Shown in pieces: positions 5,790-8,033 of a stretch of DNA of 48,339 nucleotides. Source of the DNA: Bacteroidales bacterium (GTDB taxonomy: Bacteria > Bacteroidota > Bacteroidia > Bacteroidales > UBA932). Each line of letters begins with the position of its first letter. Positions within the stretch are counted from its first letter, which is position 1. The notes beneath the pieces are model-generated. The model searched no databases. It saw nothing but the letters and a program-made list of their open reading frames with translations, and was not told where the DNA came from. The translations under genes were made by a program, and so were the position numbers. The stretch spans positions 1 to 48,339 of the forward strand of contig JAFPGC010000016.1 in NCBI GenBank assembly GCA_017423025.1, in the 5' to 3' direction.

Positions 5790-7577
5790 CTAAAATCTCT
5801 TTTCCAGTTCTTCGGCCCCCATAATGGCAAGGATGCGTTTGCCGGCCGATGTAAATTCGGGGTTCTCGCTCTGGAGGAGGGCGTCTACCAGCCGCTGGGC
5901 CTCCAGGGGAGAGGTGATATTACGGGCGCTGCAGGCACCCAGGACGGCGAATTTCTGCGCCAGGCTCTGTTCCATTACGCCCGGCAGCGCGCCGTTTTCG
6001 TCTTTGAGGATAAGGAGGACATCGGCCATGAGGGTCTCTACCTCCCCTTGCTGGGCACTATACCCTTCCGGCACGCCGCTCACCACTACCGTGTCGTTGC
6101 CGAAGGGGGCGATGTCGAAGCCCAGGCTCCTGAGGAGTTCCTGATGCTCTTCTATGAGCAGGCGGCCTTCCACACCCACGGGCACTTGAACGGGGAACAG
6201 GGCGGCCTGTGACACATGCGCATTGGCCGTGAGGGCCTTGAGGAAGCGGTCGTGCAGCAGGCGTTCCTGAGCACGACGGATGTTCACGACCATGATGCCC
6301 CCGGCGCTTTGCGTGAGGATGTACTTGCCCTGCACAATCAGAATCTGCGAAGTGGGCAGGGTCCGGTCCTCGAACAAGGCACCGTAGTTCTGGTTCTTGT
6401 CCACGTGGGACGAATAGTCGACTTGTTTAGGCTGCTTAGGCTCTGCGTAAGGCCCAAGGTCTTCAAAAGGATTGAAGTCCAGGTCTACCCCGGCGGTAGG
6501 GACGCTGGAGGGACGGTATTCTTCGAAGCGGGTGCCGATGACGGGGATCTCGCGGGCCTCGGGGTTGTCGAACTCGATGGAACCGGCCACGCCCACCTTG
6601 CCCAAAGCCTCCTTCACCGCTGCAAAAACCGTCTGGAAGAGGATCTGGTCCTCTTCAAACTTAATTTCCGCCTTGGTGGGATGGATGTTCACATCCACGG
6701 TGGAAGGGTCTACGTCCAGGTAAATGAAGTAGGACGGGGTATAGCCCTCCGGAATCAGGTTTTCGTAAGCCTTCATGACGGCTTTGTGCAGCAGCGGGCT
6801 GCGGAAATACCGGCCGTTCACAAAGAAGAACTGGTTGCCCAGGGTCTTGCGGGCGCTTTCGGGCTTGCCGATATAGCCCTGCAGGCTTACCAGGCTGGTG
6901 CTGGCCTCAATATCCACGATATCTCCCACGATGGCGGGCCCCAGAAGGTCTTGGATACGGAATTTGTGGCTGGGCGCAGGCTTGACCACGTGAATGTCCT
7001 TGCCATTGTGAGTAAGGGTGAAGGCGATATCCGGGCGGGTAAGGGCCACGCGCTGGAATTCTTCCACGATGTGCCGGAGCTCCACATTGTCGCTCTTGAG
7101 GAACTTGCGGCGGGCTGGGATGTTATAGAAGAGGTTGCGGACGGCAACGTTGGTGCCCACCGGGCAGGAGACTTCCCGCGTGCCTTTGTTTTCCGAAGCC
7201 GCCATGGTGACCTCAACGCCCAGCTCTTCGCCTTCCTGCCGGGTGCGAAGAGTGACTTCGGCCACTGCCACGATGGAAGCCAGGGCCTCGCCGCGGAAGC
7301 CGAAGGTGAGGATATGATGCAGGTCTTCGGCCGATGCCAGCTTGGACGTTGCATGCCGCTCAAAGCACAGCACGGCGTCGTCCGGCGTCATGCCGCAGCC
7401 GTTGTCGATAACCTGGATGAGCGTACGCCCCGCATCGGCCACCACTACCTTGATGTCCGTTGCGCCGGCGTCCACCGCATTCTCCATAAGCTCCTTGACT
7501 ACGGAGGCAGGCCGCTGGACGACCTCCCCTGCCGCAATCATGTCTGCGATATTTTTGGGTAATATCCTTAGTTCCAT
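5790..7577 (-). CDS. mutL: DNA mismatch repair protein MutL, endonuclease motif degenerate
   Basis: 595 residues. The N-terminal GHKL ATPase is intact: KELMENAVDAGAT, DNGCGM, and TFGFRGEALASI. It acts as the ATP-dependent matchmaker between MutS and the downstream repair proteins. The C-terminal dimerisation domain is present (about residues 400-595). Where endonuclease-type MutL proteins have the metal-binding motif DQHAxxE, this one reads VNIRRAQERLL, so the Asp and His are lost. The usual CPHGRP motif near the end is replaced by TSAGKRI. The protein is therefore probably not a nicking endonuclease. An inserted element separates mutL from the upstream gene of its operon, and no TAnnTTTG element lies directly upstream. 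Confidence 0.93.
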   Translation of the reverse strand: MELRILPKNIADMIAAGEVVQRPASVVKELMENAVDAGATDIKVVVADAGRTLIQVIDNGCGMTPDDAVLCFERHATSKLASAEDLHHILTFGFRGEALASIVAVAEVTLRTRQEGEELGVEVTMAASENKGTREVSCPVGTNVAVRNLFYNIPARRKFLKSDNVELRHIVEEFQRVALTRPDIAFTLTHNGKDIHVVKPAPSHKFRIQDLLGPAIVGDIVDIEASTSLVSLQGYIGKPESARKTLGNQFFFVNGRYFRSPLLHKAVMKAYENLIPEGYTPSYFIYLDVDPSTVDVNIHPTKAEIKFEEDQILFQTVFAAVKEALGKVGVAGSIEFDNPEAREIPVIGTRFEEYRPSSVPTAGVDLDFNPFEDLGPYAEPKQPKQVDYSSHVDKNQNYGALFEDRTLPTSQILIVQGKYILTQSAGGIMVVNIRRAQERLLHDRFLKALTANAHVSQAALFPVQVPVGVEGRLLIEEHQELLRSLGFDIAPFGNDTVVVSGVPEGYSAQQGEVETLMADVLLILKDENGALPGVMEQSLAQKFAVLGACSARNITSPLEAQRLVDALLQSENPEFTSAGKRILAIMGAEELEKRF

Positions 7578-7579
7578 AT

Positions 7580-7723
7580 ACTTCGTTGCAGGACAGGTCC
7601 CTCTGAAACCCTACGGTCGCTTCGCTCCCTTCGTCCCTCCCACCGGCTTTGCCGGCGGGCCCCTCCCTCTGATGAGCCGAGGGTGGCTACAGGTTTCAGA
7701 GGGACCTGTCCTTCCACTTCGTT
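7580..7723. mobile_element. MITE-like insertion with perfect 21-bp inverted ends and 8-bp target duplication
   Basis: The arms at 7590-7610 and 7692-7712 are perfect reverse complements (21 of 21). They are flanked by an 8-base direct repeat ACTTCGTT at 7580-7587 and 7716-7723, which looks like a target-site duplication. The 80-odd bases between the arms are GC-rich, contain a CCGGC-TTT-GCCGG hairpin at about 7643-7655, and encode nothing. Removing the element with one target copy leaves the upstream gene's stop codon only 8 bases from the mutL ATG, which is normal operon spacing. This strongly suggests a recent small non-autonomous insertion. In mRNA the arms would form a long hairpin between the two genes. 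Confidence 0.7.
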
Positions 7724-8033
7724 ATAGCATTTCAAAGAATTTGGCCATGTAGATGAGGACTACCACTATCAGGACCAGGGTGACCAGGGTGATGATGGTG
7801 TGGGCCTTGCCCATGGAGGAGCGGGTGCGCTGGTAATTACCATTGCGGAAAGCTCCCCGCAGACTGCTGCCGGGCACATACTCTCCACTTTCACGGGCTT
7901 TTTCGTTGGTACCGTCCACGTCTCCGAACATCTGGCGCCGCTTTTCTTCCTCGGGGTCATAATAGCGGGGCTTGTAGTTGAATACCCGGTGCGGCTGGTT
8001 GCCGAAAAATCCGAAATTGAACAAACTGGCCAT
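7722..8033 (-). CDS. Small conserved protein with C-terminal membrane helix
   Basis: 103 residues. The N-terminal 75 residues are charged and soluble, with a HRVFNYKPRYYDPEEEK stretch that I associate with a small Bacteroidota protein often encoded before mutL. Residues about 78-98 form a single C-terminal membrane helix, so it is probably tail-anchored with its N-terminus in the cytoplasm. Its stop codon overlaps the right copy of the target duplication of the inserted element, yet the reading frame is intact. It is the first gene of the mutL-rhomboid-EEP-tsaC operon. The function is unknown. Confidence 0.75.
   Translation of the reverse strand: MASLFNFGFFGNQPHRVFNYKPRYYDPEEEKRRQMFGDVDGTNEKARESGEYVPGSSLRGAFRNGNYQRTRSSMGKAHTIITLVTLVLIVVVLIYMAKFFEML

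Follow-up and report, generated by a model that had tools for sequence, protein, structure and literature searches.

A dispersed palindromic element with a conserved core and mostly site-specific arms lies ahead of mutL in a Bacteroidales genome

Results

A palindromic element separates mutL from its upstream gene

The window, meaning the whole stretch of 48,339 nt that was analysed, carries on its minus strand a 103-aa gene followed by mutL, with 144 nt between the upstream stop codon and the mutL start. The interval is occupied by a palindromic element with the following arrangement.

5790..7577, minus strand: mutL, downstream of the element; ORF of 595 aa, named by sequence without a family search
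7580..7587, no strand: left 8-base repeat ACTTCGTT, private to the mutL copy
7590..7610, minus strand: outer stem P1, 3' arm in core sense; 21 of 21 positions Watson–Crick with 7692–7712, sequence site-specific
7611..7691, minus strand: conserved core, 81 nt in the mutL copy, common to other copies
7611..7634, minus strand: hairpin P2 region, variable, with the tip GCGAAGC at 7619–7625; the weakest helix, with 86.7% of cells paired
7639..7659, minus strand: hairpin P3, 7639–7647 with 7651–7659 around a triloop; alignment columns 60–67/75–82
7665..7683, minus strand: stem A, plus-strand CCCTC 7665–7669 with GAGGG 7679–7683; interleaved with stem B, with covariation
7675..7688, minus strand: stem B, plus-strand AGCC 7675–7678 with GGCT 7685–7688; with covariation
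7692..7712, minus strand: outer stem P1, 5' arm in core sense, pairing with 7590–7610
7716..7723, no strand: right 8-base repeat ACTTCGTT, private to the mutL copy and overlapping the stop codon of the upstream gene
7722..8033, minus strand: 103-aa gene upstream of the element, stop codon 7722–7724; matches found in 183 of the 200 genus genomes searched

The initial annotation had described perfect 21-bp inverted arms, an 8-base duplication at both edges and an 8-base operon gap that would be restored by deletion. The arms were indeed complementary throughout, ACTTCGTT was present at 7580–7587 and 7716–7723, and excision of the element together with one repeat leaves 8 nt. The same annotation saw no coding content, which is not quite correct because a plus-strand ORF (7342–7752) passes through the element and its relatives lie in frame within real genes. 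The core sense of the mutL copy is the minus strand, the sense of the mutL mRNA. Folding of the minus strand as RNA between 7585 and 7718 gave −79.7 kcal/mol compared with −50.8 (sd 4.1) for shuffled sequences (z = −6.98), with 0 of 200 shuffles folding as well. One P3 pair in this copy is G-U in the core sense and A-C in the opposite strand. Judged by sequence, the operon transcript would carry the hairpin of the mutL copy. Most likely this insertion is tolerated and forms part of the operon transcript; the effect on mutL expression that had been suggested is unproven.

Orthologous junctions include intact, decayed and empty sites

Orthologous mutL junctions were taken from the best 30 of 183 matches to the upstream protein, obtained from a search of 200 genomes of the genus. 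An intact copy was present at six junctions (L051, L052, L053, L064, L066 and L067) and a decayed copy at three (L062, L063 and L065), while ten were plainly empty, the upstream stop codon overlapping or adjoining the mutL start (L054, L056, L058, L072 and L075–L080). Six further junctions contained other short repeats (L055, L059, L061, L068, L069 and L071), and at the remaining five mutL was not located by the script (L057, L060, L070, L073 and L074). The proposal of an insertion with a rebuildable empty site was therefore upheld by ten of these 30 junctions. Fixation of the same bases and flanks in distant relatives, named by the annotation as the contrary outcome, is not the pattern found, with six junctions of 30 intact and three decayed. 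At the intact orthologous copies the arms differ on both sides together, and a single core orientation was present among the copies compared.

The gaps at the empty mutL sites, at those of the L010/L205 locus (L094 and L108) and at that of L249 (L253) measured 0–30 bp, and inspection by eye found neither an arm sequence nor a palindrome at these sites. Through the L,D-transpeptidase neighbour of L003, no empty site was reached. The short repeats at the mutL junctions of the six relatives include GATTCTTCGCTGCGCTCAGAATGACA and GATCCCCGATCAGGTCGGGGATGACG, and some are palindromic. At the L179 junction, where L008 has an element, lies another palindromic repeat, TTGCCGGTCGAGCCGGCAATGACG, together with a second one.

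The family is large and was found in Bacteroidales

Further copies had been expected in the same genome and in relatives, and many were found. BLAST of the mutL copy against its own genome gave 22 rows, two of which are its own arms, leaving 20 places including itself; these matches lie mainly across the core and no other row spans both arms. A single copy from a relative, L025, spans both arms, at 79%. Matches were present in 21 of 61 genomes, corresponding to 21 of 37 from the genus and 0 of 24 from other families. A covariance model based on an alignment of 35 copies gave 27 matches in the own genome, which had supplied 16 of the aligned copies. The mutL copy, itself in the alignment of the model, was matched at 7589–7713 on the minus strand with 97.6 bits, and the window held no second copy at E ≤ 1 in this search. 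Under strict filters the model matched 4 of 198 genomes of the order, own included, and the matches beyond the own genome came from one other genus of the same family and two from other families. With 218 distinct copies collected, this palindrome of about 100–150 bp is a high-copy element.

The core pattern occurs in at least 120 stretches in named genomes, and the 80 matches listed are all titled Bacteroidales, Bacteroidia, Bacteroidaceae or Cryptobacteroides, two Candidatus Cryptobacteroides species among them. We infer that the genus of the window is Cryptobacteroides. Viral contigs contained 0 exact matches to the core pattern, and a search of 12 loci against Rfam (E ≤ 1) found nothing on any element. 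Beside elements, Rfam matched a TPP riboswitch by the L011 copy (L011:1567–1662, 69.4 bits), beginning about 10 bases beyond an element, and gave two weak mir-1323 matches by the L012 copy.

A first parser missed some BLAST matches, among them L014, L019, L020, L036 and L037. The later parser keeps copies with paired arms (score ≥26); from 235 distinct core matches, 2 were excluded as too close to an end and 16 did not pass, roughly half of the 16 being chance matches and the others real cores with poor arms (including L101, L122, L133 and L222–L224) or cut or long ones. Little bias comes from selecting copies by how well their arms pair: poor arms removed 16 of 235, several of which are chance matches. 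The frame count covered 187 copies, the sense sorting 177, the direct repeats 216 and the outer flank 213, the remainder being without enough flank; the sense sorting also left out copies with long frames on both strands. Arm-only matches (L021 and L022) and repeats of other loci (L051 and L241) stand outside the later counts, and L045, with mis-assigned arms, was left out of one count. Outside both alignments are L011, L027, both L031 copies, L040, L042, L043 and L045; L048 is outside alignments A1 and A2, and L039 is outside A2. L237 and L238 (G019), on two contigs, are one element whose arms and flanks are identical in both places, reflecting either a segment duplication or an assembly artefact.

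Arms are paired within a copy and differ between copies

The outer stem comprises 14–66 aligned pairs, with a median of 28 (205 distinct copies), and its inner 20 pairs are at least 90% Watson–Crick in 179 of 218 copies. Among copies with a core identity of at least 0.95, mean arm identity was 0.66 for 22 pairs from G014 and 0.55 for four pairs from the own genome, against baselines of 0.50 when copies were drawn at random and 0.40 when arms were shuffled. L203 and L205, for example, have a core identity of 1.00 and an arm identity of 0.62, and for L003 and L004 the values are 0.99 and 0.70. Exceptions with common arms in G014 are the two L201 copies (1.00) and L201 with L203 (0.90), and seven G016 copies also have arms in common (L212–L214 and L216–L219). 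The arms are mostly site-specific, and what unites the family is its core rather than its ends. Hairpins P2 and P3 vary between species yet are alike in the pairs with near-identical cores, so the arms seem to change by a route other than that of P2 and P3. The G016 copies with common arms form a subfamily with a longer P3, and the similar left flanks of several of them suggest that a larger unit was amplified.

The core contains covarying interleaved stems

The core has a median length of 74 nt, with a spacer range of 55–147 nt, and consists of two hairpins (P2 and P3) and the interleaved stems A and B. In the core sense, the 5' strand of stem A lies inside stem B, and the 3' strand of stem A comes after stem B. 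For the structure A/B/P3/P2, the A2 alignment of 35 copies had 96.5% standard pairs compared with 81.2 in shuffles, and a covariation of 0.358 compared with 0.100 in shuffles and at most 0.051 in slid-partner controls. The structure was checked on 170 copies from other loci, 167 of which were parsed; five positions pair in 165, 166, 163, 167 and 167 of the 167 copies, each exceeding the best of 500 shuffles. The two variable pairs of stem A are Watson–Crick in all 167 copies and never G-U, unlike the outer stem. The interleaved stems, as modelled, are most likely an H-type pseudoknot, which is preferred because the loop lengths, in our judgement, suit it; they could instead be two alternative hairpins.

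Mismatches between the arms favour one strand. Read in the core sense with neutral scoring, the arms of 205 copies contain 186 G-U and 62 A-C mismatches (p = 1.4e-15), with G-U exceeding A-C in 97 copies and the reverse in 19. Earlier G-U counts were discarded because their scoring favoured G-U. When 177 copies were sorted by spanning frame, the G-U to A-C counts were 46:16 for the 40 copies antisense to the frame and 112:28 for the 124 with no frame, and the 13 copies sense to the frame were without the excess (8:7). A G-T mismatch is also milder than A-C in DNA. The G-U excess thus points to a single strand of the core sense, which may be RNA or single-stranded DNA, and such a folded strand seems to be under selection.

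Target duplications of constant length are absent

The initial annotation read the element as a miniature inverted-repeat element (MITE) and anticipated other copies flanked by different 8-base duplications. Such copies did not appear: a direct repeat of at least 8 bp is present in one of 216 copies, the mutL one. The longest direct repeats at the ends of its orthologues are 4 bp (L052), 6 bp (L053) and 5 bp (L064, L066 and L067). Repeats of at least 6 bp occur in 12 of 216 copies (5.6%, control 2.2%) and of at least 7 bp in 5 of 216 (2.3%, control 0.4%), and no target duplication of fixed length was found in the 216 copies. Given that repeats of 6–7 bp are commoner than in the control, a minority of copies may have a target duplication. 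From the MITE reading, the insertion, the many copies and the empty sites stand, but the arms are not common to most copies, save some from G016 and G014, and the target duplication is not constant. A MITE with a constant target duplication was rejected on these 216 copies.

Copies lie in frame within conserved genes and the core flips between arms

Among the 187 copies with enough flank, 76 are spanned by an open frame that measures 500 nt or more and extends 150 nt past either end of the element, a count that includes some spurious frames. Gene orientation taken from the longest ORFs is a crude guide: this DNA is GC-rich, and its antisense frames run long. Pfam families were matched by 19 of 20 frames tested from the 76, with no match for the L118 frame. 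Elements are present in ygiQ-type radical SAM frames (L026, L113 and L043), beyond domain III in dnaX frames (L093, L129 and L086) and in an aminotransferase frame (L050). In HI0933-like flavoprotein frames the L111 and L103 elements both lie at profile position 140. The element falls between domains in an FAD synthetase–riboflavin kinase (L089), UvrD (L151) and an ABC exporter (L131), joins two different domains in the frames of L161, L171 and L195, and is distant from the Pfam domains in L233, L144 and L196. Two copies lie within one open frame in the dnaX frame L086 and in the PrmC-type methyltransferase frame L031.

In-frame insertion occurs in unrelated conserved genes, ygiQ among them. 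Across 30 ygiQ loci, eight have a linker of 9–18 nt (L293–L300) and 22 an insert of 66–210 nt, and all 22 inserts are multiples of 3. The parser saw the family core in 14 of the 22; each of the remaining loci has either a decayed copy or an insert of another type. A second type of in-frame palindrome, with TTGGCCCTTACGAAC as its interior and arms of its own, occupies the same gene sites in L281 (ygiQ) and L330 (HI0933-like). A third type of ygiQ insert at the same site is GGGGAC-rich, with CCCCCTGCACCCCCA or CCCCCTGCGCCCCCA close to its start (L282, L284, L286 and L291).

At 11 of 22 loci with copies in at least two records, the core lay in both orientations when compared with the flanks, and the orientation pairs across the 22 loci comprise 73 same and 65 inverted. 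In ygiQ, the core of L274 is reversed relative to L273 and L279 between nearly identical arms, with a flank identity of 89.6%.

Host sequence may contribute to the arms

The carrier L301, at the L111 locus in an HI0933-like gene, has the close empty relatives L305 and L306–L309, with L305 at 98% and 94% protein identity to it on the two sides. To the left of its arm, L301 has a stretch that repeats, inverted and with mismatches, the coding sequence to the right of the other arm, and the empty HI0933-like genes keep other codons where the inverted stretch lies. Inverted similarity between the outer flanks (score ≥18) was present in 22 of 213 copies and 89 of 2126 controls, approximately a two-fold difference. 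The L111 score of 26 was reached by 4 of 2126 controls, so that 0.4 are expected among 213 and three were seen; this score alone is not decisive. Pairing of arms into the ygiQ host codons, convincing by eye, was rejected on a fixed-register permutation (35 against 33.2, with 1003 of 5000 as high). The proposal that the arms derive from host sequence thus has partial support.

Discussion

Members of this family have inserted between and within genes, have a conserved core between site-specific and closely paired arms, and are found at single sites in both orientations. The element ahead of mutL is one copy of this dispersed, insertion-derived palindromic family of Cryptobacteroides-type Bacteroidales, its conserved core, most likely an H-type pseudoknot, being closed by the long outer stem. 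Template switching at inverted repeats has been described as homogenizing arms and inverting spacers, coding sequence included (PMC8604942, PMC8794818). In replication, a nascent strand could use one arm, and on occasion the flank as well, as the template for the other, which would keep the arms complementary, would probably lengthen them with host flank sequence and could also invert the core between them. Arms that changed together and spacers inverted between orthologues are the pattern seen, and template switching is the process we infer from it; it fits arms that stay paired as they change, extension into the flank and inversion of the core. Because template switching leaves the G-U excess and the arrival at new sites unexplained, selection on the folded strand and a separate mobility were added. 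Selection acting on the core-sense strand in its folded form (RNA or single-stranded DNA) would keep the core, with G-U or G-T tolerated in the stem and A-C not, and copies within genes may survive by leaving the frame open at sites that tolerate an insert. Like cores could reflect gene conversion rather than recent movement. Taken as a whole, a family of inserted, coding-compatible palindromes whose arms are rewritten and core flipped by template switching, together with selection on the folded strand, is the moderately probable account that we favour.

The strong covariation, the G-U excess in one sense and the orthologous mutL copies whose arms differ on both sides together would suit a structured regulatory or small RNA family of old copies, its stem kept by compensatory selection while the arms drift, and its cores alike by selection or gene conversion. 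Such a family should let P2 and P3 covary as freely as the arms, but these hairpins are identical or nearly so in the very pairs whose arms differ. Orientation relative to genes also varies, by a crude count, and flips at one site, and in-frame copies in unrelated enzymes do not suit a regulator; we consider it possible but unlikely. A bolder but unlikely reading is that the pseudoknotted core is a mobile nucleic acid, either RNA or single-stranded DNA, which inserts by itself and forms its terminal repeats at every new site by reverse-copying the host flank. If true, insertion would duplicate the target in inverted instead of direct orientation.

Two further explanations were weighed. A classical MITE, with terminal inverted repeats recognized by a transposase encoded elsewhere and a target duplication (8 bp here), would account for the size, palindromic shape, empty sites and copy number, for the 8-bp repeat at mutL, for the arms common to some copies and for the 6–7-bp repeats that exceed the control in a few per cent of copies. 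Most copies are without common ends, however, and repeats are as scarce as counted above (≥8 bp in 1/216, ≥6 bp in 12/216), which makes this reading improbable. Alternatively, the core may have inserted into the loop of a pre-existing hairpin, a terminator or other palindromic repeat, with the old hairpin surviving as the arms. Many copies abut stop codons or sit between converging genes (by crude orientation), the L003 arms resemble a two-way terminator by eye, and other short repeats, some palindromic, lie at six of the 30 mutL junctions and at L179, the relative of L008. The empty sites speak against it, as no palindrome was visible by eye at those of mutL, L010/L205 (L094 and L108) or L249 (L253), nor is there one in the 9–18-nt empty ygiQ linkers. 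Insertion into terminator hairpins was rejected as not borne out at most empty sites, and the pre-existing hairpin is a very improbable source of the arms. The preferred reading thus remains an inserted palindrome family with arms rewritten in place.

REP elements with RAYT have GTAG-like bases next to the hairpin. In the core sense of the Bacteroidales element GTAG-like bases also adjoin the hairpin, but they vary and belong partly to stem B. MITEs such as Correia/NEMIS, ERIC, RUP and YPAL are described as small, palindromic and dispersed, with RNA hairpins and some open frames fused to genes (PMC2229807). The Bacteroidales element is likewise small, palindromic, dispersed and hairpin-forming, whereas the common ends and usual target duplication of MITEs fail for most of its copies. 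The coding palindromes of Nematomorpha mitochondria are perfect inverted repeats within protein genes, for which template switching has been proposed (PMC6649704); in contrast to these, as described, the Bacteroidales family has a common core and the dispersal of one element. Homogenization of arms and inversion of a spacer are shared with template-switch mutations, but these are described as small single events (PMC8604942, PMC8794818), and the element here is dispersed, with a spacer of 55–147 nt.

Coding palindromes of Bacteroidales were not found described among the titles and abstract openings listed in the literature searches, which include MITE papers on Porphyromonas and Cardinium. By description, the nearest known kind is the Rickettsia palindromic element (RPE). 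As summarized in the sources, the elements of Rickettsia and Wolbachia are about 100–150 bp, have many copies, lie between genes and in frame in conserved protein genes, and are carried by orthologues at the same locus (PMC2229807, PMC3767692, PMC10969869), and the arms of the RPE reportedly become less identical as they age (PMC6649704). The Bacteroidales element resembles them as a palindrome of about 100–150 bp with many copies, both intergenic and in frame. Compared by description, it differs from the RPE in its phylum, in its mostly site-specific, closely paired arms, and in a core that has covarying interleaved stems and flips between the arms. Arm renewal, tolerance of in-frame inserts and the spread of a structured core become measurable by strain comparison, given about two hundred natural cases of one core between different, closely paired arms, also found flipped. 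To the coding palindromic elements described from Rickettsiales is now added a large family of gut Bacteroidales with a covarying folded core.
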